From assembly GCA_029881655.1 (NCBI GenBank), contig JAOUME010000005.1:1-46522 (forward strand): a stretch of DNA of 46,522 nucleotides, in the 5' to 3' direction. Position numbers and translations under genes: made by a program. The DNA is from Deltaproteobacteria bacterium. Its GTDB lineage: Bacteria > SAR324 > XYD2-FULL-50-16. Position 1 is the stretch's first letter; each line of letters opens with the position of its first letter. Under the pieces are notes generated by a model, which made no database searches, was not told where the DNA came from, and saw only the letters and a program-made list of their open reading frames with translations. Below, piece by piece: positions 1 through 21,181 of this stretch.

Positions 1-390
1 CAGACTTAATTCACCATTATCATCAAAATCGAGGCTGCCTTTATCACCCAACACAATGGTCCCTTCCGTTATTTCTTGATTTAAATACATTATTGGGTAT
101 TCGATAAACTTTTTTTGACCGCTATACTGCCATCCCAATTCCAAAACATTGCCTTGTAGATCCAATATCTCGATGCGGATACGCTCAGAGTTCGTGCCTC
201 CCAAATAAAGTGCTGCCTTTTGACTATAAAGAGGGTCATATCCATTAACCTTCAACTCAAGACGGGCATTCCGCTTAGAGGAAAGGAATCTTTGGGCTTT
301 GTAATGTCCAAAAAGATTGGATGCCGGAAAAGAGGGATCTTCTGAGTCGGCATTCACAGATTCTAAGCTGTTCTGAATGATCTTAAGCAT
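1..390 (-). CDS. Phage tail-associated protein, 3' end outside window (partial); not in ORF track
   Basis: ATG at 390-388, open to window edge: MLKIIQNSLESVNADSEDPSFPASNLFGHYKAQRFLSSKRNARLELKVNGYDPLYSQKAALYLGGTNSERIRIEILDLQGN... Confidence 0.75.
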   Translation of the reverse strand, partial: MLKIIQNSLESVNADSEDPSFPASNLFGHYKAQRFLSSKRNARLELKVNGYDPLYSQKAALYLGGTNSERIRIEILDLQGNVLELGWQYSGQKKFIEYPIMYLNQEITEGTIVLGDKGSLDFDDNGELSL

Positions 391-464
391 GAATTTTCCT
401 GAAAATTTAATGTAAAAGTCCATTTTTGGGTTATCAAACTCCATCCCCAATTTTCCAACAATTC

Positions 465-3122
465 CTAGTAATTAATATTACCTTGAGCTTGGTTTTTAGC
501 CCAGTTTCCTTCTAAAAGTGATGTCCATCCCACTCCTACATTGCCACTTAAAGCGCAACCGATCGGCTCGCTAAGACCGTTTTCACCCAAAAGCTTAATC
601 CCTACATCCTGGGCGGTCTGGGTTTTTACTATTTCAAGCTGATTGCCGTTGACGCTGACGAAACAGCTCTTGACACGGATACCACTGATCTGACTATCAG
701 TGTTTTCAGCATTTATAGTCATCTTAAGGGCGTTTGAGCTAACAACCGCACTATAAGCGTGAACCTCAATCGCTTCAATTTGATGCCCCTCAGACCAGTA
801 CATCTGAATTTCCACAACATTCCCCGACACCACCGCCCCATTTGTCGCTGTCTGATCAACGACATCAATCGCCTCAAAACCCCAATTAACCGAAAGAGTT
901 TCCTTTAGGACAACATAATTGTTACTTATGGTACCGCCTCCCAAATTACATAAAATACCCTTACGAGCCACAGTCTTACCTGTTTGAGGCGTTAGATATC
1001 CTTTCATAGCGATCCGGTTTCCTTCAATCACCGCACTAAGAGAGTTGGCTTCGACGGCTATATCTCTTTGCTCGAAAAAAAGGCAATCTCTAATAATCAG
1101 ATTGCCACCTTTGGCTTGGTGCAAAATTCCCTGTCCTTCATAAAAAAGACAACCAGTAACGCTCATGTCAACTTCTCTCTGCGGGTAGCCATCTCCAGCG
1201 ATTACAGGCCGGATTTGAGCGGAGGCATCGCTGGTGGTCAAAAAACGACAATCATTAATTCGTATTTGATCGATAAAAAGATCAAGTGCGTTTCCAAGAG
1301 TATAATTGAAAAGACAGTTGGATATTTCGATACTGCCGTTAGTTGGGTTGCCGCCCGTGGAATTTACAGCACTAATAAAGCTGTGGTATCCAGTTGTGGC
1401 ATCTTCCGAGAAACATAGATTTTCTATCAGAACCCTATGGGTGGTCTGGTCAAAACATAAAGCTGATTTGGCTGGATCGCTTAGTTCCATAACAATCATA
1501 CTATCGTAACGATTTTCACCTTTGATTTCCCAGGCATAAGATCCAAAATCGATCTGGGAGTCTACCCGATGTTGGCCTCGCTTTAAAAATAGATTACCGC
1601 CCCCAAAAGGTTTTAATGCCGAGACTGCTTCTGAGAGTGAAGTGAAATCACCCTCGGCTGGACTTTCAGCTGAAATAGTGTAGTATTTCTTCTGCTGAAC
1701 CGCCCCTTTGATCTCTTTGAAAACTTTTTCCACTGCTCCTCCTGCCTGTGGTGCTGGTCTTGTACCGAAATAATCACCTTCACCAACAACGGATACTTCC
1801 TCTGAATCAAAATCATACTGAATGGTCCGAGCATGAAGATAAACTGTGGTAGCTTGAAATAAATTGTTGTCTAAAAAATCAATCCTGGTTCCAGGTTTCA
1901 CCAGGCCATAATCAAAAGGCAACCTCAGACTCGCCTCAGGTCGATTGAGGATTTCAGCGATATCGCTGAGTTGCCCTAATATCAAGCTGTTATTCTCTTC
2001 CTGAGGAAAAACCTTGATGTCTTTTTGAAGCCCAAAGAACTGGTTGGATTCGACAAACTGACTTTTTTGCCTGGTCAGATACAAAGGCATGCCTTTCTGA
2101 TTTATTCCGTTTTCAAGATAACTCCACTGTGATATCAAACGCTTTACCGGTGATTTGTAACGATAACTCGAACTGAAATACTCAAAGTCACTGAGGCTTA
2201 GCGTACCATTGTCACCAAGCATATCAACTAGCACCAAACTGTTTCCCTTTATATAAAACATGTGAGAATAAGCCGCGCTGATCTGATCTAAGAAATCAAT
2301 TACTCGGATTTGTTCACTGACATAAAAACTAACTATTGGGCTTGGATTTCTCGCATATTGAGCTTCCAAAGTCAGGTTGAGGCGATCGATTCCGCAGGCA
2401 AAACTGAATATATCAAGCAGGGTTCCCCCGTAACGGGAAATGCCTTTTATCCTGACTTCTCCTACGGGTTTGGGCTCCAGAAGAAAATGATCCTCCTCAA
2501 CTGGCGCATCCTTGATGTTCGAATTGACCAAGACCCCATCGTCATAAACCTCAAGAGTCTCCCCTGCCATCAGTCCAGCTCGAAAGAAACGAGACTGGTT
2601 ATCTGTGTCACCCGGCTGCGGAATCATCCTGGGTATCAGGTGAAGAGCTTTGGGTGTAGTCTCCGATCCGAAATATAGCGGAATAACCCCGTTTGATACC
2701 GGATTTTGCTCCTCATCAATGATTTCCATGCCGATAGACGATTTCATCAATAAATCCTGAGGATATTCAGCCGGATAAAGCTTGTAGACCGACTGATCGG
2801 ACTGGATCGTGAAAAGACGTGCTGCGCAAATGAAAACCTCTTCCAGATCTCCGCTTTGGTGACGATAGGCGACTTTCAAATCCACTCTTAACGGTGGCGG
2901 CCAAACCAAAGCATCAGGTGTTATAGTGACCTCCCCGAAATTCACCCTCACATAACCTCCGAAAGACTCTGAAAGTTGGAGTTGAAACGAACCAGCACTA
3001 AGTAGCTTGGGCTCCCAAAAGCGTGTGACCCCATCCAAATCGAGAGAACTCGTTGGCTCTTTGGCAAGATAGAACCGCTCGGGTTCTTGCCCTATGCAAA
3101 TCACTTCCAATAATAATGTCAT
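465..3122 (-). CDS. Tail hub/tip protein fused to a C-terminal right-handed beta-helix (tailspike/pectate-lyase-like) domain
   Basis: 885 aa; N-terminal half tail-hub-like, then YYTISAESPAEGDFTSLSEAVSALKPFGGGNLFLKRGQH and repeated beta-helix rungs (IENLCFS, IEISNCLF, IRINDCRF, IIRDCLFF); follows tape measure. Confidence 0.7.
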   Translation of the reverse strand: MTLLLEVICIGQEPERFYLAKEPTSSLDLDGVTRFWEPKLLSAGSFQLQLSESFGGYVRVNFGEVTITPDALVWPPPLRVDLKVAYRHQSGDLEEVFICAARLFTIQSDQSVYKLYPAEYPQDLLMKSSIGMEIIDEEQNPVSNGVIPLYFGSETTPKALHLIPRMIPQPGDTDNQSRFFRAGLMAGETLEVYDDGVLVNSNIKDAPVEEDHFLLEPKPVGEVRIKGISRYGGTLLDIFSFACGIDRLNLTLEAQYARNPSPIVSFYVSEQIRVIDFLDQISAAYSHMFYIKGNSLVLVDMLGDNGTLSLSDFEYFSSSYRYKSPVKRLISQWSYLENGINQKGMPLYLTRQKSQFVESNQFFGLQKDIKVFPQEENNSLILGQLSDIAEILNRPEASLRLPFDYGLVKPGTRIDFLDNNLFQATTVYLHARTIQYDFDSEEVSVVGEGDYFGTRPAPQAGGAVEKVFKEIKGAVQQKKYYTISAESPAEGDFTSLSEAVSALKPFGGGNLFLKRGQHRVDSQIDFGSYAWEIKGENRYDSMIVMELSDPAKSALCFDQTTHRVLIENLCFSEDATTGYHSFISAVNSTGGNPTNGSIEISNCLFNYTLGNALDLFIDQIRINDCRFLTTSDASAQIRPVIAGDGYPQREVDMSVTGCLFYEGQGILHQAKGGNLIIRDCLFFEQRDIAVEANSLSAVIEGNRIAMKGYLTPQTGKTVARKGILCNLGGGTISNNYVVLKETLSVNWGFEAIDVVDQTATNGAVVSGNVVEIQMYWSEGHQIEAIEVHAYSAVVSSNALKMTINAENTDSQISGIRVKSCFVSVNGNQLEIVKTQTAQDVGIKLLGENGLSEPIGCALSGNVGVGWTSLLEGNWAKNQAQGNINY

Positions 3123-6100
3123 AAGAACATTGGCCTCCCACCCACCTGCCGATTTTCAGCCTCGACTCTCATTTCGTCAGAGACCAGTCTGATTCTTGAG
3201 TCCAGTCTGCCTCCATCCACCTCGACCTTGATTTCTTTGTTTTGGGATTCAAGCAGTCGTCTTAATAGTTGGTTTGTCTCTTTGAGTTCCCCGCCATTCA
3301 GCCCCATGCCCTTAACGGGGATTGACCGGCCATCCGGCAGAGGAACCACCGCTTCTGTGTTATGCAAAATCATAGGATAACCCGTTGACGGCCCTTCGAA
3401 AACACCACCAGTCGCTGCCTGAAGCGGCAATCCCAGGCTCTTTCGGTAATCGTTAATAAATACCTTGAGAATGCTTTCCAGGTTTGATATAAATTTCTCA
3501 AGACTACTAGAAACATAATTAATCTCTGACTGAATGTCTTGAATGTTCTTCTGCGCCACACCTTGATAAAACTGCGCTGTTTGGTCTAACCCTTCAAGGT
3601 ATTGTACAAGATTTTGGCTCTGGATTTCCTCACGTAAGATGCTTTGATCCAAGGAATTTGAAAACCGTTCAATCAATTCGGAGAAATCCTGGCTGCCCAG
3701 CTCATCAAATTTTAAGTTCGCAAGATTTATGTTATCTGAAAGATAAGCCTCAGACTCCCTTAGGCGAGCAAGACTCAAATCAAATAGTTCCTGGTAGGTG
3801 TTTGAACTACGATAACGTTTTTTGGCTTCATCCAAAAATCCTGGTATTAGACCCGCAAAATCCTCAATAGCTGATACCCGTTCTTCGGTTGTTCCATGAA
3901 GGGTTTTCTGGTAGAGTTCCTCAACCCTGTTTTGCTGAAATGCAAAATTCTCCGAAGGATTTAACTCTCCGCCCAGAATCTGCTGGATGCTCATTTGGGT
4001 CTTTTCAAACGCTCCTTTAAGGACACCCAGCATAGCTTTGGTTTGGGCGATCTGGGTCTCGTTTTGTTGAGTGACTTGAATCAAGGCGTCATACATCCCC
4101 TGCTGAAGTTTGAGGCTTTCTTTTGGATCGCCAGAAGGTAAAAAAGACGAAGACTTCTTTTCCAGTTCATCGAAACGGACCTGCCACTCGGACAGTCCCC
4201 AATCCTTGGTTTTGCGCGAAGTTTGCCAGTTTTGAAGTCCTTCTTTGAGCCTGAAAAGATCATCCGCTGTCTTGTCATGGATTGCGACTAAATTCTTGAC
4301 GTTTGAAAACTGCCGATTAATCAAAGAAGTCGCTTGCTCCAGATCTGTCTCATCTTGTGTAGGTTTGCCTAAAACTCTGCTGCCATTTAAGTCTTCAAAC
4401 GACCTTTTGTAGTCGATGAACTGTTTATGGCCTTGGTCTCTCTGGTCCAGGTAAACCCCGATTTCCGATGAAATCTCAGAAAACTGCTCGGCCACTTTCT
4501 CTAATTTTTCGGACAATTGTTTTAAGGCGCTAAAGATCTGTCGGTTAAGCCCCATAAAATCCTGTCCATAATCTGGCTTACTGTAATCAAGTGAATTGAT
4601 CTCATTTTTAAGTCTGCCAACCTCTTCCTCCCATTGATCACTTTCCCAACCTGATCGCTCAACCGATTTTTGATAATCAACCAACTCCGAGTGAAAACCT
4701 TTGGCCTGGTCTATTTCAAACTGCTTCTGATCCAGAACTTCTTTTGTAAACTCGATTTCCCTTTTCCTGAGATCGATGAGTTCTTCGGACAAACGGTTAT
4801 GCCGCTTTATATCTCTTTGTGAAGTGTTTTCGATGTTAACCGTAACCCGTCTGATTTTATCTTGTACCTTATCAAGCTGACTTAACGTATCTTTCTTGTC
4901 GCCGATCAGATCAACCCCTTTTAAAATGGTCTCGCGAAGGTCATCTTTCAAAAGATCCTTTTTCGCCTTAAGCTGATCAAGTTCCTGTTTCCTGGCCTTA
5001 ATGATTTTCGTCTGTAGCTCCAATTCTTCTTTTTTGAGTTCAAAATACTCCCTTCGGGCAATCTGTTTTTCAACAGGGTCTTTCAGGTCATACCGCTCAT
5101 TTAATCCCTCGATCTTTTGACTAACCAGCTCTAAAAGTTCCTCGTCAGACTTGCCCCATTGACTTAAAAGACGCTTTTGCTCGTTTAAAGTCACATTATA
5201 TCGGTTTGCGGCCTCCATGGCGCTCTTCAGTACTTCCTTTCTGAATTCCTGGCTTGACTCGCTAATTTTGACCAGTTCTACTTCCAGTTCCCTTAGCTGC
5301 CTGATATACTCCATATGGCTCAATTCTGGCGGAGCCTTATCGCCATTTTCGTCCACGGCGTTAAAATCCTGACTTTCGTATTTAAGAGTCAGGTCTTCTC
5401 TTTGCTGATAAAGATCGATGAGCCGACTCGCGCCTTTTCGATAATCACTGAGCTTAACTTCTAACGTACGGTTGTTCTCTGAGAGCGTCTTTAGAAACTG
5501 ATCGAATTCCTCTTTGATCCGGTTAAGTTCCCCCCCCATATAATCCCCTGATCCTCCCCTTCCGCTTGGTCTGAAGACCTTACCTGAAATAACGGCGTTG
5601 ATAGTATTGCTGATGCCATTAGCGGCAGATGTGAGGGTTCCACTAACTAGCCTTGCGGTCGCGTTAACCAGCGCCAAAGCCACCTGAGGCATGGCTTTGA
5701 TCAGCGCGTCTACCACCTTGGGTATGGCTTCCACCAGAGCATCGATTATCTTCGGCAATGATTCGGGTAATTTCTCAAGGCCGTTTAAAAAACCCTCAAC
5801 CGATTTATCCAGGTTTTCCGGGAAGTTGTTGATCTCATCAAAAAGAGATGTGAAACTATCTAAAATACTCATGGGCATCTTGATGATCGACTCGATACTC
5901 TGGTTGATAGCCAGGACCATTCCGAGTCCGCTTTGCGCGAACATCTCGCCCGCCTGATTAACGAGCGAACCGAAATTATCTCCTGATTTCTGAATCACTT
6001 CATTAATGCCCTTCTGATCAATTTTAGGTCCCTGATCACTTTGCGACTGCCTTATGGTAGCTACTCCCTGTAAAGTACTTTTCGAGTTAATGGAAACGTC

Positions 6101-6280
6101 AGAAAGTCTGTTTAAGTTTTGCAGACGGGTCGCTCCAGCATCTTTCATGGGTTTTTTAAAGCTACGGTTTAACTCACCGATCCCCTCTTTAAGGAGGTTA
6201 AGCTTTTTCCTGGTTTCATCAACCACATTGGTAAGCCCAATCAGGCTTTTTCCCAACCCTTCAGTTTTATCCGTCCGCAT
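3119..6280 (-). CDS. Phage tail tape measure protein
   Basis: 1053 aa, extensive coiled coil, central hydrophobic segment, C-terminal ATGGVFEGPSTGYPMILHNTEAVVPLPDGRSIPVKG motif typical of tape measure proteins; ATGA overlap with the next gene. Confidence 0.9.
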   Translation of the reverse strand: MRTDKTEGLGKSLIGLTNVVDETRKKLNLLKEGIGELNRSFKKPMKDAGATRLQNLNRLSDVSINSKSTLQGVATIRQSQSDQGPKIDQKGINEVIQKSGDNFGSLVNQAGEMFAQSGLGMVLAINQSIESIIKMPMSILDSFTSLFDEINNFPENLDKSVEGFLNGLEKLPESLPKIIDALVEAIPKVVDALIKAMPQVALALVNATARLVSGTLTSAANGISNTINAVISGKVFRPSGRGGSGDYMGGELNRIKEEFDQFLKTLSENNRTLEVKLSDYRKGASRLIDLYQQREDLTLKYESQDFNAVDENGDKAPPELSHMEYIRQLRELEVELVKISESSQEFRKEVLKSAMEAANRYNVTLNEQKRLLSQWGKSDEELLELVSQKIEGLNERYDLKDPVEKQIARREYFELKKEELELQTKIIKARKQELDQLKAKKDLLKDDLRETILKGVDLIGDKKDTLSQLDKVQDKIRRVTVNIENTSQRDIKRHNRLSEELIDLRKREIEFTKEVLDQKQFEIDQAKGFHSELVDYQKSVERSGWESDQWEEEVGRLKNEINSLDYSKPDYGQDFMGLNRQIFSALKQLSEKLEKVAEQFSEISSEIGVYLDQRDQGHKQFIDYKRSFEDLNGSRVLGKPTQDETDLEQATSLINRQFSNVKNLVAIHDKTADDLFRLKEGLQNWQTSRKTKDWGLSEWQVRFDELEKKSSSFLPSGDPKESLKLQQGMYDALIQVTQQNETQIAQTKAMLGVLKGAFEKTQMSIQQILGGELNPSENFAFQQNRVEELYQKTLHGTTEERVSAIEDFAGLIPGFLDEAKKRYRSSNTYQELFDLSLARLRESEAYLSDNINLANLKFDELGSQDFSELIERFSNSLDQSILREEIQSQNLVQYLEGLDQTAQFYQGVAQKNIQDIQSEINYVSSSLEKFISNLESILKVFINDYRKSLGLPLQAATGGVFEGPSTGYPMILHNTEAVVPLPDGRSIPVKGMGLNGGELKETNQLLRRLLESQNKEIKVEVDGGRLDSRIRLVSDEMRVEAENRQVGGRPMFL

Positions 6281-6315
6281 CCTTGACTCTTTTTGTTAAA
6301 GTTAAAATTATTTTC

Positions 6316-7094
6316 TTAAGTCTTTTGGTTCTGCCGAGCTGTTTTTTCAAGCAACCTCGGATAGATCTCTTTTTCAATGCATAGTATTTTTTCAAGTGAC
6401 TCACGGGTCTGACCCAAACATTCCAGCAGAGACATAACGGCTTCCAGACGGATGGGTGAAATTCCAAATCCAAGATCCCGTCCAAACTGGTTTAAGATCA
6501 TCCATAATTCAAACGGCTCGACGTTCTCCGAGAGTAGCGGGGGTTTTTGCGACTCATGACAAGGAGCTGTCTCAGCATCACCGTCCCACTTTAAACAGGG
6601 CGGGCAATCCAAATAGGCTTCCTCGCATTGATCGCAAGATACTTTGCCCTCCGGCGTCGAGCCGTACCAGTGGGCAAAGTCGATTAGTTTTTTCTTTCCG
6701 ACTCCATCTGATCTTTTTCCTCCTTAACCACCTTAAAAATAGCCTCGTCCAGCTTGTCCAAAATGGGTCTGGCAAACTCATCGTAATAATTCAAAAACAA
6801 AAGCTCGATTTGAGACGGGTCACAGGGAACTTCCTTGGATTTCTCATCCACCAGATTCCACTCCTTCCAGGTTTTCTTTGCCCGCTCCAGGTTTAAGGAG
6901 AAATAATCGGTCTCAGGGAAAAGAACCTTATCGCTGCCTTTTTTCTTCAGACCGCGCTCCATCGACATTCTTCCGGAGGTAAAACGCTTTTCCAACTCAA
7001 GATCCTCTTTTTTGTTTAAGGGACAAATCCTGACTTTAAGTCCCTCCTGCTCCACCTCGTATGACCGGACCTGATTCAGGTTTAATTTTAACAT
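6316..7094 (-). CDS. Tail assembly chaperone fusion (G-GT type) produced by predicted -1 frameshift at 6687-6693
   Basis: 0-frame ORF 7094-6684 ends ESERKN*; the -1 frame continues KKLIDFAHWYGSTPEGKVSCDQCEEAYLDCPPCLKW... into ORF 6612-6316; located between major tail protein and tape measure. Confidence 0.82.
6643..6693 (-). promoter_or_regulatory. -1 ribosomal frameshift signal: A_AAA_AAC + TAA + hairpin
   Basis: Minus strand AGA AAA AAC TAA; 8 nt spacer TAATCGAC; stem TTTGCCC (6678-6672)/GGGCAAA (6649-6643) with inner CGGC/GCCG. Confidence 0.8.
6684..7094 (-). CDS. Tail assembly chaperone (G-like, unshifted product)
   Basis: 136 aa ORF directly upstream of tape measure; RPILDKLDEAIFKVVKEEKDQMESERKN*. 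Confidence 0.8.
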   Translation of the reverse strand: MLKLNLNQVRSYEVEQEGLKVRICPLNKKEDLELEKRFTSGRMSMERGLKKKGSDKVLFPETDYFSLNLERAKKTWKEWNLVDEKSKEVPCDPSQIELLFLNYYDEFARPILDKLDEAIFKVVKEEKDQMESERKN

Positions 7095-7184
7095 ATCTGG
7101 CTCCGCGTGTATGGTTTGAATATGGGATTAATTGGAGACATTTCCCCGATTGACCCCATTATTAATTTATTTCAATGGCGCCCC

Positions 7185-8600
7185 TTACACGAAAACCAGG
7201 GCAAATGAATCCTCCAGTTCCTGATCGAGCGCGCTGAATTCCATTTGGATGTTAACCATCGGCTCGCTTACACTCAGCTTGGGAAGTTGTAGTGAGCATC
7301 TGGGCATCCACAATAGACAGCTTTGCCCCCCTGTTCCGTCTCCAAGGCGGATAAGGATGGACTTTTTATTATCATCCTGCTCGGCGTCAGCAAACAGTGC
7401 CAATTCGGAATTCTTGAACATTTGGGTTAATGAGCCTCCGATTTCGCGTCTTCCTGCGGCGTAGTCGCTGATTGGGTCAGGACTGATCTCGGCTTCAACA
7501 TATTGTATCTGGGCTTTGATGTTCATTTCGAAGTTAGTTGGCTTTTTCGCGAGTTCATCGATTTTCATTTGAGAATCTTCAGAGCGCACCGGACTTCCCA
7601 CGGCCGTATCCTCTGGCAGATAGCCTCCAATCTTTTTGTTGGTCCCCCAACTAATGGTGCAACTGGCCAGGGTTATGCTGTCGTTTGTGAGATCTACCGC
7701 CGTGACTTCATAACCCGACCCCAAATTACTATCTCCATCATCAATATTGTAAATTCTGGCTCCTACAGAGAAATACTTGGCCTCTCCGCTGGCAAGATTT
7801 AAAACCGCCGGGCTGGCCGTACCTCCCGTATAAGAGAGCATCTGGGCCTTGCCTGCCCTGCCCATCGAAATAAATCCGCCGCTCAGTTCAAAGCCCGGAT
7901 AGCCTTTGTTCTCAAGACGCACCCCCATTTCCGAGACCGTCGCTCCCGATGCAAAATAAACGATCTGATCTTGTTCGTACCAAAGCGAAAAGGAGGGCCT
8001 ATCCAGATTCTGGATAAAGGTCGGCGATGCCACCGCCAAAGAATCATTAAGTACCCCGCTGACAGCCACACTCTGACCGTAGCCCCGGGTAAGACCGGTG
8101 AAACTGCCCTCATCCAAGGCGGTATAGGTGATCCCCTCATAAAAAATCAGCTCTGGAACGTCCACCCCGTTATCTAGTTTAAAAACCCCCTTTAAAGGAG
8201 GACGGTCGCCCGTAAGCCCTTTAAAAGAAATCGTCAAATCACCAGTACCAACCGCGCCTGTTAAGGATGCGCTCCAGTTAGCCCTTTTGCCCTGAAGACA
8301 TTCAAAAAGAGCGGCACCCATTGGATCTTTGACCTCGAAGTTGACACTGAGATCAACTCCGGCAGGTCTAGCCAAAATCGGCAATTTCCAGCTCCCCGGG
8401 CGGTTTTTGTCCTTGACCTGATCTTTAAGGTTAAGACTGGGTCTGATCTCTGGGCTATCGGTGTAACTCGCCTGCTGAGAACAATCGATATGGCCAGCGC
8501 CGATCACGCAATCGGTTTGTGCCGGAAAAATAAGGTTCCCCGGTGTCGATTCCTTTACCGCGAAGACCTTTTGGAAAAATGGATTAATTAACTCTGTCAT
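7185..8600 (-). CDS. Major tail tube protein
   Basis: 471 aa, position between tail terminator and chaperones; beta-rich, VYVEAEISPDPISDY-type tail tube sequence. Confidence 0.7.
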   Translation of the reverse strand: MTELINPFFQKVFAVKESTPGNLIFPAQTDCVIGAGHIDCSQQASYTDSPEIRPSLNLKDQVKDKNRPGSWKLPILARPAGVDLSVNFEVKDPMGAALFECLQGKRANWSASLTGAVGTGDLTISFKGLTGDRPPLKGVFKLDNGVDVPELIFYEGITYTALDEGSFTGLTRGYGQSVAVSGVLNDSLAVASPTFIQNLDRPSFSLWYEQDQIVYFASGATVSEMGVRLENKGYPGFELSGGFISMGRAGKAQMLSYTGGTASPAVLNLASGEAKYFSVGARIYNIDDGDSNLGSGYEVTAVDLTNDSITLASCTISWGTNKKIGGYLPEDTAVGSPVRSEDSQMKIDELAKKPTNFEMNIKAQIQYVEAEISPDPISDYAAGRREIGGSLTQMFKNSELALFADAEQDDNKKSILIRLGDGTGGQSCLLWMPRCSLQLPKLSVSEPMVNIQMEFSALDQELEDSFALVFV

Positions 8601-8602
8601 TG

Positions 8603-9007
8603 TTATTCTCCCGTTGAAGTTGTAAAGGGAACGGCGACCCTATGATGAAGCCACCGTTGATTGTTTTTTTCCATAAAAATACTTTTGGGTTCCCCCAGAT
8701 AAAGCCCAGAAAGATTCTTTCTTCTTAAGAGACTTTCGGCCAGCCCCGCCAGTTCCGCGCCCCGTCTCATCCCATCTAGGGGACTAAAGACATCAGCTAG
8801 AATCTCGCCTTGACGGACACCGATTCCCTGAAGACCGATTTCCAGTACCTCGGTCTCACCAGGCTTTACCTGGAACAAAACCCAGGACTCCTCTAAAAGC
8901 GGTTGGGAGCCTTCACCGAATCCCGCGCCCCCAAAACTGTAATCGCAGTAATTCCAAACCGACTCGATGTACTGCTCGATCGTTTTATAAATAAGAATCA
9001 GCGTCAT
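8603..9007 (-). CDS. Tail terminator/completion protein (probable)
   Basis: 134 aa, MTLILIYKTIEQYIESVWNYCDYSFGGAGFGEGS...; syntenic position. Confidence 0.5.
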   Translation of the reverse strand: MTLILIYKTIEQYIESVWNYCDYSFGGAGFGEGSQPLLEESWVLFQVKPGETEVLEIGLQGIGVRQGEILADVFSPLDGMRRGAELAGLAESLLRRKNLSGLYLGEPKSIFMEKNNQRWLHHRVAVPFTTSTGE

Positions 9008-9089
9008 GCCATACCCTTAATTGTTTGCGGTTTAAATTAAACAGTCCAGAATTGATCAGTCATCAGACCTCTCAGCGATAAAACGTTTT

Positions 9090-9515
9090 TTAACCTGCCA
9101 GAACCAACTCATAAAGAACCCCCGACTCCATGTCCTGTGAGAAACAAGCCAGAACTCGAAATAAAATCGAGTTATAGTACAACCAGTCCTCCTTTCTGGG
9201 TACAAAGGGGGTCTCCGTACTGGTTGAAAGCTGCTCCCAGTTAGCCCCATAAGTGATCTTCCGATCTTCAATCGCTACCAGTACTTTTTTTTCGCCTCCA
9301 TAGAGCTCCTTGATCTCAAAGAGATTATTTTCTGACGCATTTTGGCTTAGAGGCAAAACCCGACAATAAAAGCCCAGTTTTAAACTTGAGAATTTCCCGG
9401 TCTCACTATCGTAAAGACCTTTCTGGCTTCTTCGAATTTCGCCCTTGAACGCCTTGGCCCGCGTCAAGGCCATGAGCGCCTCGGCTCTGCTGAATATCGC
9501 GCCCATCATCAGCAC
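9090..9515 (-). CDS. Head-tail connector/closure protein (probable)
   Basis: 141 aa; syntenic position; overlaps the upstream gene by 7 nt. Confidence 0.5.
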   Translation of the reverse strand: MLMMGAIFSRAEALMALTRAKAFKGEIRRSQKGLYDSETGKFSSLKLGFYCRVLPLSQNASENNLFEIKELYGGEKKVLVAIEDRKITYGANWEQLSTSTETPFVPRKEDWLYYNSILFRVLACFSQDMESGVLYELVLAG

Positions 9516-9988
9516 CTCACCAGTTTCCTGTTTGAACTCAGGGGATTTAAGAACCGCCTCATCAGCCCCTCGATCTGACTAAACCGATGACGTGGATCGC
9601 TCTTTGGAAAGTATTTCTTTTCCAGAGGACCGAGCTTGAAAGATTGCAATGCTCCCCCTGGCTCCAGATCAGGGAGGAGTTCCTCCTCAAAACTCTTTAA
9701 TGCCAACAAGGCAACCGAGTCCTTGACTTCTTTTGGGGTGGTTAAGACAATTCTGCCTTCTAAGTCCTCCACCCCGCTTCTGGGCCAATTTAATGGCTGA
9801 GAAGAATCCAGCAGATTTCCCTTGAGACGTCCCTGGTAGCTCTGCTCCATAAAGATCGTTGCCTTGACAAGAGCTGTTTCCTTCTCGGCGGTAGTCTTAA
9901 TATCCCAGTTGGGGTTATTCATCCTCTGATGAAATTCGTCGGCCTCAGCCACCGAAAGATAGCTGTCGGTTCCTACTTGAATGCTCAT
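9509..9988 (-). CDS. DnaT-like/head-tail adaptor protein
   Basis: 159 aa; MSIQVGTDSYLSVAEADEFHQRMNNPNWDIKTTAEKETALVKATIFMEQSYQGRLKG...LNWPRSGV pattern common in phage adaptors. Confidence 0.65.
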   Translation of the reverse strand: MSIQVGTDSYLSVAEADEFHQRMNNPNWDIKTTAEKETALVKATIFMEQSYQGRLKGNLLDSSQPLNWPRSGVEDLEGRIVLTTPKEVKDSVALLALKSFEEELLPDLEPGGALQSFKLGPLEKKYFPKSDPRHRFSQIEGLMRRFLNPLSSNRKLVRC

Positions 9989-10045
9989 TTACTTACCTCT
10001 CTGACTGTTTTTATGTCCCAAAGATGTCTTGGGCGTGTATTGACG

Positions 10046-10429
10046 TTAACGACGCTTTGTTTGATCGGCCAGCCCCTGTGAAAAAACATAAACCATCAGC
10101 GGTGCCACTAAAATAACGATCTCCTTTAAATCCAGTTCCAGTTCAAAAACCCGGTTGATCACCGGTATTAAAATGCCTATTAAACTCACCCACCATTTCT
10201 TGGACTGCCAAAAAGGCTTATCCAAAAGATCCAGCGCCAACTTTTCGACCAGCTTTTCATTGGCGGATTCACTTAAACCCAAGGCCTTCCCGATCTCAAC
10301 GGCCTTTATGAGTTTGTTCTTTGCTTGATACAAAATACCTCCTTGATAAATATGACTTAATCCGTTCCCTAAAGCTTTGGCCGCCATAGAGCCTAAAGTC
10401 CGGGACAACAATCCTGAAATACCGATCAA
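10046..10429 (-). CDS. Small membrane protein, holin-like candidate
   Basis: 127 aa; two predicted TM segments KKWWVSLIGILIPVINRVF and EIVILVAPLMVYVFSQGLADQTKRR. Confidence 0.45.
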   Translation of the reverse strand: MIGISGLLSRTLGSMAAKALGNGLSHIYQGGILYQAKNKLIKAVEIGKALGLSESANEKLVEKLALDLLDKPFWQSKKWWVSLIGILIPVINRVFELELDLKEIVILVAPLMVYVFSQGLADQTKRR

Positions 10430-10443
10430 CTTATGCTCCTTGG

Positions 10444-11214
10444 TTAAAAAACTCCCGATCCATCTGCCAAACGGTCGATCATTTCCTTGGAATACTCCAG
10501 TCCCTCCAGCTCAGAAAAACTCCCGAGACTTTGGGCATTAAAGCCTGAAAAATCAATCGCTCCGCTTGATCCTGATCCTGATGATCCCTCAAACAAAAAA
10601 GGCTTTTCCCTTAAAAGGTCCAGAGCCCATCTCTCAAAGCTTAATGGCTTGGAAGTCGCAGGGTCAATAATGACTTCCTCTTTCTCGTCTAGGGGTACGG
10701 GTCTTCCGTTAACCAGTTTAAAAACCCCACGTCCCAAATCCAGAACATCACCCAAGACTTCTGGCTTGAGTCTGCCAATCCGGCCCAAAGCTCTCCCGAC
10801 TTCCTGGTCGATCACTCGTCTGGCCAAATCCTTTTCCAAGCTCTCGTTCTGATAGCGGAACTGATCTAGCGATTGCCGCAATATCTGATTTTCCAGCTCA
10901 CTTTCCTGTTTGAGACGTTCAGTCTCTCCTTGAACCATTTTCTGAGCATCTTCCATGGACAGAAGCGTTCCTTGTTTTATCTCCTCGAGCCGCTGTTTCA
11001 TTCTTTGGTGTTCCTCAGGCTCTATCCCCCCATAATGTTCCTCCATATCTTTGATTTTTTTTAATAGCTCGATATTATTTTGCCGAAACTCGCTGATCTT
11101 CTCCCTGGATGGATCATCTTCAACCTGAAGATAAAAGACACCGTCTTCTTCCTTGTAATGACCCTTTAAGTCTTCTGGAAGATTATCGAGCGTTGTTAGT
11201 ATTTTTTTTAGCAT
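10444..11214 (-). CDS. Capsid scaffolding-like protein
   Basis: 256 aa, highly charged coiled coil; EKISEFRQNNIELLKKIKDMEEHYGG. Confidence 0.6.
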   Translation of the reverse strand: MLKKILTTLDNLPEDLKGHYKEEDGVFYLQVEDDPSREKISEFRQNNIELLKKIKDMEEHYGGIEPEEHQRMKQRLEEIKQGTLLSMEDAQKMVQGETERLKQESELENQILRQSLDQFRYQNESLEKDLARRVIDQEVGRALGRIGRLKPEVLGDVLDLGRGVFKLVNGRPVPLDEKEEVIIDPATSKPLSFERWALDLLREKPFLFEGSSGSGSSGAIDFSGFNAQSLGSFSELEGLEYSKEMIDRLADGSGVF

Positions 11215-11252
11215 TGGACCTCCGGTCTGCTGTAATTGTTTAGATATAGACT

Positions 11253-11438
11253 TTATCTTTTTGATTTAAAGTCTGATTTTGGACGGCCTCTTTTTTTGGG
11301 GACCGGGGTTTCACCCGGATCAACGACCTTATCCTTTGGCTCCTCCAAAACCGGCTGGTGCGTCTCAGGATTGAAGTTCTCCTGATTGATCCAGCGGAAA
11401 CCACCTCCATTTTTCACCCGGGTTATTTTTTTTCGCAT
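11253..11438 (-). CDS. Small basic protein with AT-hook-like RGRPK motif
   Basis: 61 aa, C-terminus PVPKKRGRPKSDFKSKR. Confidence 0.6.
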   Translation of the reverse strand: MRKKITRVKNGGGFRWINQENFNPETHQPVLEEPKDKVVDPGETPVPKKRGRPKSDFKSKR

Positions 11439-11574
11439 GGATTTTTCCTTTCAAAATACGGATGAGGACTCAACCTCACTCAAATCCCTCCGCCAATGAT
11501 TATGATATCGTTTTAACCCGGAGTCATGAAATTCAAGACCCCGGGAATATCCGTCAACTCCGGTTACGAACGCA

Positions 11575-12753
11575 CTAACCGGCTATACGAACGGCCAATT
11601 CCGGCCTGACCAGTTTGACACCCCATAAAGCATCCAACTCCCACATGGTCTGCTTGTACTGGTCGATGATCTCAAGTCGCATCACCAGCCCGGAATAGGG
11701 ATCTGAAATAGTAAAGGAATTAGGCCTTTGAACCAACTCGCTGACCCCTTCTCCCGGAGCGCGCATCGCCAAAGCGAAGGCATCCCTATGAAAGGCAAGG
11801 TTAACCACATGGCTCTGCTTGCATTGGATTTCCTCTGAACCGCTCAAAGCCACTTTCAATCCCGGCTCAATCGCAATGCTCACGTCCAATCCCGCGCTCT
11901 GTGAAACATCAGCCGTCACGACATAAGTCTGGCTGTCCCCGGCAATCGTGAGAATGTCACCTTGAAACAGGTTCAAGCCGTTTGTAGCGCCGACGGTGAC
12001 GCTGAGACTTTTGACTGCCAGCGCGTGGGGTGTAGCGGATTTAATGACGGTGGCGGTAGTGCCATCGCCTCCAACGGTGCCGGCGCTGTGAGTGGGAACG
12101 TCGTCATCGGCGAACCAGTCGATACCGAACTTGCGGCCAATCTCCCCTGTGATCTTGGTATCAGAGCTGCCGGTTTTCTCGGCGTCTGAAAAAGGCGCCA
12201 ATCCAAGCGCCTGCGCTTCAGCGTCAAAATCCAAAACCGCCCTTCTCTTTTCTCTGGGTGATTTCTGAAGATTCAAAAGCTTTCTGGCGTCTGTGGCGGA
12301 CTTTACCTCAATGCCGGTGCCAAATGGTGTAGTCCCGGCCGTCCCTACATAACCGTAAATGCCCTTGTACTCAGAAAAGACCGACTGGTTGATCTTGCTG
12401 GCCAATGCTTGAAATGCCTCTTCCATCTGCAGGGGTAAAAAATCCTTGTTGGCCGAAATCCGGCCCATCTCGCTATCGGTAAGACCAAAGTTGGCCTTCT
12501 TCCAATTGTTAAGGGTTACTTGCACCTTGGAAATATTGCTGTTTTCCGGATCTGAGGAAACCGCCGCGGGAACCACATCGGTGGCGGTTCTGGCCGAGGC
12601 GATCGGAATATCGATTGTGTCGCCTTTTTGTCTGGCTTCCCTGGAATAATCCAGATTGATCATTCGGGTCATCAAAACCCGGTTTCTCAAGACTCTCAAC
12701 CCCCTGGCCAAAATAGTCGGCACCAGGGCCGATACATTATTGCTTAATGCCAT
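11575..12753 (-). CDS. Major capsid protein, P22 coat-like
   Basis: 392 aa; MALSNNVSALVPTILARGLRVLRNRVLMTRMINLDYSREARQKGDTIDIPI... typical of the P22 gp5-like family; RBS-like AAGGAGA upstream. Confidence 0.85.
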   Translation of the reverse strand: MALSNNVSALVPTILARGLRVLRNRVLMTRMINLDYSREARQKGDTIDIPIASARTATDVVPAAVSSDPENSNISKVQVTLNNWKKANFGLTDSEMGRISANKDFLPLQMEEAFQALASKINQSVFSEYKGIYGYVGTAGTTPFGTGIEVKSATDARKLLNLQKSPREKRRAVLDFDAEAQALGLAPFSDAEKTGSSDTKITGEIGRKFGIDWFADDDVPTHSAGTVGGDGTTATVIKSATPHALAVKSLSVTVGATNGLNLFQGDILTIAGDSQTYVVTADVSQSAGLDVSIAIEPGLKVALSGSEEIQCKQSHVVNLAFHRDAFALAMRAPGEGVSELVQRPNSFTISDPYSGLVMRLEIIDQYKQTMWELDALWGVKLVRPELAVRIAG

Positions 12754-13048
12754 TTGTTCTCCTTATTGGTTATGATTTGATCGCGTAAGTTAAACGCGGC
12801 TTAACCTTACGGCCCTGCCAGGACCGGCTTTAAGATGGCTCCGCCCCTCAAAGGCTTTCTTTTAATGACGGCCTAAACCTTTTTAAAAGATTGATCTCCA
12901 AAATGATAAACCTTCTTTAAGAGGGACTGAAAAGGCCTTTATTACGCTCGCTTTATGATAGCGGGCTCAGTTTTGAAGCTTTTATCCCCTTTGGCTTTTT
13001 TTATTTTGGATATCCCTTTTTTATAGGGCTCAGGCCGTCTTACAGACC

Positions 13049-14428
13049 TTATTTTTGATGTTTTTTATCCTTTTCAGAGGTGATTTCCGTTTTATGTTCC
13101 AACTCGATCAGCTCTTTTTCCTGCTGCTTGGTCCGGTCTTCGGGCAGAATCTCACCTTTTTTAAAGTTAAAGATCAGACTGTCCCAGCTCATTGCTCCCT
13201 TTATCCACGCATCCATCAAGGCTGTGATCTCTTTTGCCTCCAGGGGGCCGCTTAGAAAATCGTTGTTCAGACTTAAACAGACCTTCCCTGTCTCCCCGCT
13301 CATCATCGCCCACCAATCAAGAGCCGAATTCACGGTTTTTGAGATGCTCCTGGCGAGTGACGCTAAAATCGAGTTCTCACCGATTCTCCTGAGGCGATGA
13401 GTCTGGGCGGCCTCCACGGCTTTTTTGGGTTCCTCCAAAAGTCTGGCTCCTAAAACGGCCATCAGATCTTGTTTTTCTTTCATGGCGTTTTCGAGCGCCG
13501 AGAGGCCCTGACCCGTAAATTCAAGATACCCTGCCTTGGCGTCCGGGTTCTCAGCCACCCATGCGGTCTGCGATCCGATCTTAAGCTCGGTCTCAGCGTC
13601 AAATCCAGCTACCCAGACGGTCGGAAGGGCTGTAAAATGCCGGCCATGCTCTAGATCAGCGCTGGTGCGGTAGTGACTGAGGTTCACCGATGCCAGGTCT
13701 GCCAGGGGCGGCTTAAACACCCGGGTGGTCTGATCACAGGGGTTGCAGAAAACAAAGGGTATAAAATCCAGGGGATTGCCTCTAATCCTAGGAATAAATT
13801 CCTCCACTGAACTGTATCGTTCTGATTCTTCATGGTAACGAAAAAGACTGACCCGGTAGCGGTTTTCCTCATCCATCCTCAAGACACGGTACTGAACCTT
13901 CTTCTTGGATGAGAAATAATCCTCACCGGCCTCCAAATAGTTCTCTCTTAAGACAACCAATTTGAGCCGCTCAAGACCGCCTTTTCTTTCGGCGCGCCAG
14001 TTGATAACGTTCTCCGCCGCATAGCCGCTTAGATAGGCTTTCTTTCCGTTTTGTGACTCCATATCCACCAAAATACCGTAGCGTCCGGTGGTGAGAACCT
14101 CGCTGACCACCCCCCTTAAAAAGGCCTCCAACCCCAACCCTTCGGAGCTGATGCTATCCAACTCCCGCAGAGCCTCAGGAGAGGCCATTATCTCTGGTTT
14201 CTTGCGGAAAATCGCTCCGGAGAGACCCTCCAAAGTTCTGGCGGTCGCGGCGTAAAAGAGCGCCCGGTCCCGGTAGGACAGGTACTCCATGTAACCCTGT
14301 CCCTCCAGAATCGGCAGAAACAGGGTCTCTTCCGCCTTAACAGCCTCCTCTCCCATGATGACCGCCCGGCATTTTCTCCAAAGCGGATAGGCTTTCTTAT
14401 AGTCTTCATGTTGGCTTTCGACTGGCAT
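13049..14428 (-). CDS. Phage portal protein
   Basis: 459 aa downstream of TerL with TAATG overlap; DUF4055-like portal sequence (YKKAYPLWRKCRAVIMGEEAVK...YLSYRDRALFYAATARTLEGLSGAIFRKKP). Confidence 0.85.
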   Translation of the reverse strand: MPVESQHEDYKKAYPLWRKCRAVIMGEEAVKAEETLFLPILEGQGYMEYLSYRDRALFYAATARTLEGLSGAIFRKKPEIMASPEALRELDSISSEGLGLEAFLRGVVSEVLTTGRYGILVDMESQNGKKAYLSGYAAENVINWRAERKGGLERLKLVVLRENYLEAGEDYFSSKKKVQYRVLRMDEENRYRVSLFRYHEESERYSSVEEFIPRIRGNPLDFIPFVFCNPCDQTTRVFKPPLADLASVNLSHYRTSADLEHGRHFTALPTVWVAGFDAETELKIGSQTAWVAENPDAKAGYLEFTGQGLSALENAMKEKQDLMAVLGARLLEEPKKAVEAAQTHRLRRIGENSILASLARSISKTVNSALDWWAMMSGETGKVCLSLNNDFLSGPLEAKEITALMDAWIKGAMSWDSLIFNFKKGEILPEDRTKQQEKELIELEHKTEITSEKDKKHQK

Positions 14429-15819
14429 TAAAATCCCTTTATTTTACGTTTGACAAGTTTTGGTTTATAGCTCAAAAGACGATAGCGTGTCTCGTCATAG
14501 ACATGATCTTCCATCCCCGTGTCGATATCGTCAGGCTCCTTTTCACAGCGTCTGAGAAGCGGGATGGTACGGATAAAATGGACACAGTTCGAAAAAACAT
14601 AGAGTCCTGGCAGTCCGTTTTTAGGCTCCAGAGAAGCCTTGAGATAGGCCCTGAGTTTTTCAAGGCCGGTTTTCCTGGAGCCGGGCGATTTATCCGACCG
14701 CTCCCAGCGTACCCCGACTCTGGTCATTTCCTCTGCGATGGAGTGGCCGTCTTCCAGATTGAATATCTGGTTATCAGCAGGTCCTGGACTCACCTTCAGC
14801 CCCAATTCCCTCTCGATTTTCAAGATCATCCAGGCCACTTCCCGAGCGAGCATTTTGGAACCCTGATTGGGAATACCGTTCCAGCCATAGTACTCTGAAA
14901 TCCGAAACAGAGTTCCTCTGGGATAGGTCCGCGACTGACTATCGCTAAGCATGACGGGCGTGCCATCAGACTCTGCCCACCAGCCTACCGAGAAGGGTCT
15001 GGCCGAACCCCAATCGAAGGAACGGTTGACCCTCCAACTAGCGGGAATCTTAAAGGGTGTGACCACATGCTTTTTCCTGTCCCAGAGATCGTCCAGCGCG
15101 CCGCCCGCCACAATGTCCCAATTCCCATACAGCCAGGCTCTTTTCTGATTTTGGTCGCTAAGGGAGTTGAGCTGCTTTAGATAATCGGGTTGAGCCTTTA
15201 GGAGCGTCTTGTTTTCTAAGATGCTGCCATGAATTCGCACGCGCCCCAGACGGTCCTTGTCGTAAATGATCACGCCCGGCGGAGTGGGGTCAACGAAACG
15301 CCTCTTAACCCAGTTGTGTCCGGGACCCCAAGGATTTGCCGTCGCGCGGTATTTCCTGGGAACTTTCGGGTCCGATGAGCGACAGCAAGCAAGCATGGAC
15401 TCGTAACATCCGGGATCAGGCCAGTTGGTCAACTCCTCCCAGCCGATCCAGGGATATTCGTGACCGTGATACTTCCAGTAGTCGTCAATGCCTGATATCT
15501 GTCTGAAAAGAAGCTCCTCTCCCGTAGGCCAGTGCCATTTCAACTCGTTTCGCAAGAAACGGATGCCTGAGAAAGCCGGAAAAAACCATTTCTTGGACTT
15601 GGCGATCACCTCGTCCAGCTGCCTCAAACTCACTCGAAACAAGACTCCCCGCCAGCTTGGCCCCAAACCCTGTCCCGCATGCTGAGCGAAATCCATCAAA
15701 AGCGCGTCGGTCTTTCCGGGGCCCCTTGAGCCTTCATAGAGACACTCAAAGACCGGACAAGACAGGAAACGCCTCTGGCTACCCTCTTGGGCTACCCAGA
15801 TTTTCCGCGGCATTTTCAA
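14428..15819 (-). CDS. Terminase large subunit
   Basis: 463 aa; Walker A-like YEGSRGPGKTDALL, Walker B/coupling YPWIGWEEL, nuclease acidic motifs FDWGSARPFS and PADNQIF. Confidence 0.92.
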   Translation of the reverse strand: MKMPRKIWVAQEGSQRRFLSCPVFECLYEGSRGPGKTDALLMDFAQHAGQGLGPSWRGVLFRVSLRQLDEVIAKSKKWFFPAFSGIRFLRNELKWHWPTGEELLFRQISGIDDYWKYHGHEYPWIGWEELTNWPDPGCYESMLACCRSSDPKVPRKYRATANPWGPGHNWVKRRFVDPTPPGVIIYDKDRLGRVRIHGSILENKTLLKAQPDYLKQLNSLSDQNQKRAWLYGNWDIVAGGALDDLWDRKKHVVTPFKIPASWRVNRSFDWGSARPFSVGWWAESDGTPVMLSDSQSRTYPRGTLFRISEYYGWNGIPNQGSKMLAREVAWMILKIERELGLKVSPGPADNQIFNLEDGHSIAEEMTRVGVRWERSDKSPGSRKTGLEKLRAYLKASLEPKNGLPGLYVFSNCVHFIRTIPLLRRCEKEPDDIDTGMEDHVYDETRYRLLSYKPKLVKRKIKGF

Positions 15820-16375
15820 TCTCGATTAGGCCTTCCTGATTTATTAGCGTCTCTTTCTGCCAACTTTCGGAATCAGTCTGAGTCCCCGGTACCACCAGCA
15901 CTCCATGGTGAGTCTGTCCGAAATAACCCTGAGGCCTTTTTTCGCGGTCCAGCCCCAGAGCTTTCCTCTCTCCGTTATGGATCTTCTCCAGAGTATCGGC
16001 CGCCGTCTTTAGGCATTTAATCAGATTTTGACCCTGAAATATTTCCCGGTCCGTCAGTACCTTCTCGTCTTTTAAGTCCCGCCTCAATTTATAGGCGTAA
16101 CGCATCAGGAGTTCCCTGATCAGGCAGCTTCCCTCCAGATAGAGCCTGCTTAAGTCGCCCGCGTTCTTCAGGGTGGTTTTTTGAAGCTCCCTTAACGCCT
16201 TTTCCTCGGTTTTCCTGACCATCATCTGATGGTGTCTCTGGTAAATCCAGCCGTGCTTTTTTGCCAGACAGTAGATGGTTTTCCGGCAACAGCCGTGCTT
16301 TTTGGCGATTTCCTTTTGAGTTACCAGCCCCGCTTCATACTCAGCCTTGATTTTCGCGAGTCTTCGTTGATCCAT
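15779..16375 (-). CDS. Terminase small subunit
   Basis: 198 aa, N-terminal HTH (LAKIKAEYEAGLVTQKEIAKKHGCCRKTIYCLAKKHGW); overlaps TerL. Confidence 0.85.
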   Translation of the reverse strand: MDQRRLAKIKAEYEAGLVTQKEIAKKHGCCRKTIYCLAKKHGWIYQRHHQMMVRKTEEKALRELQKTTLKNAGDLSRLYLEGSCLIRELLMRYAYKLRRDLKDEKVLTDREIFQGQNLIKCLKTAADTLEKIHNGERKALGLDREKRPQGYFGQTHHGVLVVPGTQTDSESWQKETLINQEGLIEIENAAENLGSPRG

Positions 16376-16521
16376 ACCCCCTCTTAAATGATTGACTTAC
16401 TCTTTTGACTGGACGAAAAAATACCGCCGGAATTTTTATAAATAGCGCAAAAACTACAAGCGGGTTTAAACGAGGTTAAACCTGTTCTTAAAATTACTCT
16501 TTTTAAGATTGATGATTAAAT

Positions 16522-16770
16522 GGGAGATGGTTTTGGCCAGACGGCCATAAAAAACGGGAGATGATAAGCGGTAGATCGAACAAAAACCAAGCGGAGTCGC
16601 GCTATTGCGCCAGACTCAATGAAAAAGATAAGTCAGTCCCTCTTAAGGCATCGCCTTAAGATCAAGACAAAGCCCGGCCGCGGAAGATAGTCTGACTGAA
16701 CAAAATTCGTTAAATAAACAAAATTTTGTTTTTAATCGGTACTGCTTTGGGAGATTTTTCGGGAGATGAT
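16522..16770. repeat. Dispersed short repeats GGGAGAT(GAT) in ORF-free region upstream of terS
   Basis: GGGAGATG 16522-16529; CGGGAGATGAT 16555-16565; GGGAGATTTTT from 16749; CGGGAGATGAT 16760-16770. Confidence 0.6.
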
Positions 16771-17106
16771 CGACTGGGAGTAGCCGTTCCCGCGTAAAGA
16801 ATTATGATGAGTTGTTAATTATTATTATACGCCGGCTTATCTGGTTTGTCAAGCGAATTTAAGCAAATTTAATCATCTCGCTTTATATTGCCACTGAGGC
16901 TGATTTTATAAGCCCAAAAACGCTAATAACAGTCTAAAAACCAAAAAAACCGCGCTTTTTTTAAAAAACTCTCCGGCAAACCCTTTACCAATGAGCGTTT
17001 GTATTTTCATCTTGCTTTTAACTGCCTGATTTCGTATCTTTGTCTTTCTAAAATGGCAAAGAATGTTTTTAATAAAAGCCAATAAAAACTTTATAAAGGA
17101 ACCGAC

Positions 17107-20447: not shown

Positions 20448-21181
20448 ATGAGCGAATCCGAGCAGGCAATTTATCTATTTTTAGATAAAAATCCATTTTC
20501 CAGACTCAGCGACCTTTGGAGGATTTTCCCTGACATGCCAAAGGGAACCCTCGCGTTGTGTTTTTCAAAATGGATGGATAAAATGAGAGCTCAGCAACAA
20601 AGGCAATTAAAGGAAATCCTCGCGAATCAAGATGAGCCGCTCTCAAATCCATTAAACCGCCATTTAGAGAAAGAGGATCTTCCTAGTGGAGATTCTTTAA
20701 ACAGCGCAACCACAACAAAAAGCGCCGAGAGTCTAAAATCAAAACAAGCAGGAACACCAATCCAAACTCGAAAGTCCGAAACAGATTCAATTGAAGCGGA
20801 TCAGGCAGAAAACACCAATAAGACACTGGACAATGCAAAAAAACAGCTCAGGGATAATTCAGATCAAGACAATTCATCATCTCGCATACCGAAGGCAAAT
20901 CTGCCACCGGCTGTTGCTAAAAACAAGCCTTTTTTCTATTTCTGCTAGAGCATCAAAACGAGCTCCAGGGTTTAATCCGACTTTTTCAGAAATCGGGTTC
21001 TCTACCTAACAGCCCCGCTTTTAATGATATTGAGATCACGAATACAAAAAAAAGAACTTATGAGATCAATCAAGACGTTTACAAACAGTTCACCAAATCT
21101 TGTAAAAACCTTAAGATAACCCAAAAAAAAGCTATCAATTTGGCGATGTTGGATTTTATCCATCGACATAAATCAAATTGA
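20448..21181 (+). CDS. Putative DNA-binding protein joined by a -1 frameshift (programmed or mutational) at T_TTT_TTC 20930-20936
   Basis: 0-frame ORF ends AKNKPFFYFC*; -1 frame open 20921-21181 without an ATG near its start gives FFLFLLEHQNELQGLIRLFQKSGSLPNSPAFNDIEITNTKKRTYEINQDVYKQFTKSCKNLKITQKKAINLAMLDFIHRHKSN*. Confidence 0.65.

Follow-up and report, generated by a model that had tools for sequence, protein, structure and literature searches.

A putative G/GT tail assembly chaperone gene with a -1 frameshift site in a prophage of a Candidatus Lambdaproteobacteria lineage

The 46,522-nucleotide stretch of DNA analysed here (the window) was found to contain, on its minus strand, a locus that very probably encodes, through -1 programmed ribosomal frameshifting, two tail assembly chaperones of the gpG/gpGT type, a reading that draws on sequence elements, gene order, and the conserved heptamer and -1 frame. 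The G-type gene (6687 to 7094, minus strand; 136 codons, 136 aa) was identified from the ORF list, a structure model, and the matches of its relatives to phrog_313 and phrog_8233, and it is followed by a TAA stop codon at 6686 to 6684, at the end of the ORF running from 7094 to 6684. Its 3' end was read directly as ...ATG GAG TCG GAA AGA AAA AAC TAA..., in which the in-phase slippery heptamer A_AAA_AAC (6687 to 6693, minus strand) abuts the stop codon, as the first-pass annotation had reported. From the heptamer, the -1 frame remains open for 125 codons (6316 to 6693, minus strand; stop codon at 6318 to 6316) and carries the T domain. The predicted G-T fusion computed from these frames is 259 aa (136 + 123), in agreement with the earlier estimate of an open frame to 6316 and a product of about that length. 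AAAAAAC by itself is frequent and was counted 43 times in the window.

In the proposed mechanism, most ribosomes would terminate at the TAA codon and release the 136-aa G protein, while a minority would slip one base back on A_AAA_AAC, assisted by a downstream hairpin, and so make a GT fusion of 259 aa. On the model of phage lambda, the tape measure protein would be coated by G and GT, the T part would recruit the tail tube protein, and G and GT would both leave the finished tail. The slippage and its efficiency, like its stimulation by the hairpin and the function of the pair in tail assembly, are inferred from the elements described here. The peptide spanning the junction is more likely to be ESERKN-LIDF than ESERKK-LIDF, the form initially predicted, because the A-site Asn is decoded prior to the tandem slip.

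The position of the locus was observed directly from the gene order, which reads terminase, DUF4055 portal, P22-like coat, tail terminator, tail tube, G/T, and tape measure. The tail terminator (8603 to 9007, minus strand) matched phrog_179, the tail tube-like or minor tail protein (7185 to 8600, minus strand) matched phrog_290, and the 1,053-aa tape measure protein (3119 to 6280, minus strand) matched phrog_5493 and phrog_305 (tail length tape measure). The G and T frames thus sit between the tail tube gene and the tape measure gene, the standard place for G/GT chaperones, of which most long-tailed phages make a short and a long form. Across long-tailed phages, this pair of genes has broadly kept its -1 frameshift (PMC5009743), as the first-pass annotation had stated for such chaperones upstream of the tape measure gene. 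Over positions 1 to 17100 of the window, phage structural genes extend from the contig edge to approximately 16.4 kb and host-like genes begin at approximately 17.1 kb. A TTTTTTC heptamer at 20930 on the plus strand, which has a longish -1 frame, is surrounded by host-like genes and was taken as a chance occurrence.

A hairpin (6641 to 6680, minus strand) identified from the sequence and by RNA folding lies 6 nucleotides downstream of the heptamer. Its 9-bp stem is formed by the arms ACTTTGCCC (6680 to 6672) and GGGCAAAGT (6649 to 6641) and continues into inner pairs, CGGC/GCCG. The hairpin with these inner pairs had been noted previously, but the stem of 7 bp and the spacer of 8 nucleotides then given were corrected by the addition of two pairs. 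The fold of the 65 nucleotides 3' of the heptamer had a stability of -25.2 kcal/mol (z = -3.7), and none of 200 shuffled sequences was equally stable. A search of the window against Rfam gave no match. When the relatives described below were folded, a strong hairpin was also present in loci G003, L023, L026, and ctIqW946, whereas the hairpins of G001, L022, and L030 were no more stable than those of shuffled sequences (that of L030 being weak or absent) and those of MAR10, G042, and G285 were weak or absent. In the comparison with homologs, a slippery heptamer was kept in all eleven loci, and the hairpin was strong in some and weak or absent in others. We infer that the heptamer adjoining the stop codon is the shared signal and that the hairpin would at most act as an enhancer in particular lineages.

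Eleven homologous loci were compared with the window: four MAG prophages (G001, G003, G042, and G285), five IMG/VR contigs (L022, L023, L026, L029, and L030), and two GenBank phages (Vibrio phage MAR10 and ctIqW946). All eleven have a slippery heptamer no more than 8 codons from the stop codon, of the type A_AAA_AAC, A_AAA_AAA, A_AAA_AAG, G_GGA_AAC, or U_UUU_UUG, and in most of them the conserved T domain lies directly 3' of the heptamer in the -1 frame. The heptamer position and the downstream frame, on whose conservation the first-pass annotation had staked its reading, recur across these loci, as does the gene order. G001 and G003, Candidatus Lambdaproteobacteria MAGs of the same family, were reached via the tail tube protein in a family-level genome search, and in both the G/T gene comes next after the homologous tail tube gene. 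The named relatives put the host of the window prophage close to Candidatus Lambdaproteobacteria. The gene ends are TCG AAA AAA AAA TAG in G003 (A_AAA_AAA) and CAA AAA AAG TAG in G001 (A_AAA_AAG), and the -1 frame of each is homologous to the window T frame from the first residue past the heptamer. A T-domain profile built from the window, G001, and G003, with the heptamer playing no part as a search criterion, was by itself sufficient to recover G042 (G_GGA_AAC) and G285 (A_AAA_AAC), in both of which the heptamer abuts TAA; a scan of IMG/VR with a T profile gave no match.

The coat protein, together with the family-level genome search, served as the bridge from the window to its relatives. 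Used directly as a query, the window G protein had no match in phage records, in IMG/VR, or among GTDB genome contigs, and the window tail tube protein had none in IMG/VR or phages. Among the IMG/VR coat-protein relatives with a G homolog, the heptamer lies 0 to 8 codons 5' of the stop codon. It is A_AAA_AAC in L022, L023, L026, and L030, as well as in L024, nearly a copy of L023, and U_UUU_UUG, a less usual slip site for a G/T gene, at L029:5210, 2 codons before the stop codon of a G homolog (profile E value, 2e-7). L025 and L027/L028, which have the coat protein in common, do not count as counterexamples, as no G/T homolog was found in the stretch examined. G_GGA_AAC abuts the stop codon in MAR10 (L042:14100) and ctIqW946 (L043:7831, minus strand). 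In the records of these two phages, the heptamer gene precedes a tail chaperonin and no joined CDS is annotated.

One scan covered loci selected for heptamers and was hence biased toward finding them. The least biased support therefore comes from the G042 and G285 loci found with the T profile, from the syntenic G001 and G003 loci, and from a background count, in which the DNA examined had 644 ORFs with a length of 100 codons or more, and 10 of these ended in XXXYYYZ abutting the stop codon. The -1 frame was open for at least 90 codons in 8 of these 10, and all 8 were tail chaperone genes.

The window G and T proteins had no significant family match in Pfam or PHROG because they are too diverged. 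The T and G domains of relatives matched Pfam PF23812 (Phage_TAC_18) and the PHROG tail assembly chaperone families 8233, 3817, and 313. Relative to the PF23812 cutoff of 27 bits, the T domains of L022, L023, L026, and L030 scored above, those of G003 (20.0) and G001 (18.2) scored below, and that of the window had no match. The phrog_8233 family is represented as one protein crossing the G-T junction at position 139-140, and in a profile-profile comparison, the window-type and virus-type T profiles aligned from the heptamer onward (E value, 1.5e-5; probability, 80%). The structure models of the window proteins were of modest confidence (pLDDT, 67). The AlphaFold model of the G domain matched tail assembly chaperones in BFVD; the T model had no significant match, and sequence and fold searches of the PDB returned no significant match. 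Membership of the window proteins among the chaperones is thus suggested by their relatives, by gene order, and by modest models.

Just past the frameshift site, the window T domain contains the motif C20-x2-C23-x6-C30-x2-C33. A Cys-rich motif of this kind (CxxC...PPC, mostly followed by another Cys) occurs at 6595 to 6636 of the window (minus strand) and also in L038, L039, L047, and L048, and it is absent from the T domains of L022, L023, L026, and L030. Weak Zn_ribbon_6 matches were obtained for the T domains of G001 and G003. Judged from sequence, it is conceivable, at somewhat less than even chances, that the T domains of the window, G001, G003, G042, and G285 carry a zinc-binding Cys-rich ribbon and that the frameshift would thus add a metal-binding module to the chaperone. 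This zinc-ribbon-like insertion, possibly zinc binding, is the one less usual detail of the locus in this lineage, and no description of a Cys-rich insertion in the T domain was found in a brief literature search.

The arrangement could also be read as two separate genes with no fusion, the second protein being made by translational coupling or from the internal TTG codon (6610 to 6612, minus strand) that opens the mechanically called ORF from 6612 to 6316. The first-pass annotation was correct that this ORF is listed, but a separate T protein beginning there is not favored, even though GAGG (6624 to 6621) provides a fair Shine-Dalgarno-like match 8 nucleotides before it. The stretch from the heptamer to the first start belongs to the conserved T domain, so a protein beginning at TTG 6612, which itself lies within that domain, would lose conserved residues; the invariant C20 and C23 lie upstream of it. 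In addition, the conserved protein sequence starts at the heptamer itself, and relatives differ in where the -1 frame first offers a potential start codon, at 18 to 258 nucleotides past the heptamer. We consider separate genes very improbable, and because the T frame is without a conserved start codon, the locus is best read as producing a fusion through -1 slippage.

The same fusion might instead be produced by RNA polymerase slipping on the A run rather than by the ribosome, as the runs of 6 A's in the window and 9 A's in G003 could both serve as slippage runs. The relatives with G_GGA_AAC at the same place have no long homopolymer, however, and the combination of a heptamer in phase and a hairpin 6 nucleotides downstream of it is the ribosomal arrangement, which leaves transcriptional slippage a small chance, slightly better than that of separate genes. 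That one original ORF was split by an indel, through decay or mis-sequencing, might be imagined for a MAG contig with a perhaps incomplete prophage, but the same frame relation and heptamer position recur in eleven other loci, sequenced phages included. As relatives keep the split frame, decay is excluded for practical purposes, its probability being negligible and the lowest of the three. Ribosomal -1 frameshifting remains the preferred reading.

Taken together, these results correct the annotation to one frameshifted gene instead of two and widen the range of conserved G/GT frameshifting to include prophages of a Candidatus Lambdaproteobacteria lineage. The homologs also form a short series with different heptamers (A_AAA_AAA, AAG, or AAC; G_GGA_AAC; U_UUU_UUG) at a fixed place. 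The general picture of G/GT frameshifting is unchanged.

This type of frameshift has long been known. The heptamer of phage lambda gpG/gpGT is G_GGA_AAG, unlike the A_AAA_AAC that abuts the stop codon in the window. The two systems resemble each other in their location before the tape measure gene, in a -1 shift close to where the first gene ends, and in a long minority fusion (PMC5009743). In E. coli, A_AAA_AAC slips less than A_AAA_AAG (PMC5009743), which counts against our reading of the window. Compared to the families PF23812 (Phage_TAC_18) and PHROG 8233, 3817, and 313, the window T domain differs by its extra Cys-rich insertion. AAAAAAC sites are published for two phages. Caulobacter phage phiCbK, which belongs to another phage group, has AAAAAAC at its pre-tape-measure chaperones gp93/gp94 and, like the window, a DUF4055 protein (PMC3556154); the chaperone slip site of Colossus is GGGAAAC (PMC3556154). 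In Acinetobacter phage vB_AbaS_Loki gp12/gp13, an extra gene separates the chaperones from the tape measure gene, unlike in the window, but AAAAAAC directly adjoins the stop codon (PMC5313236), as it does here.
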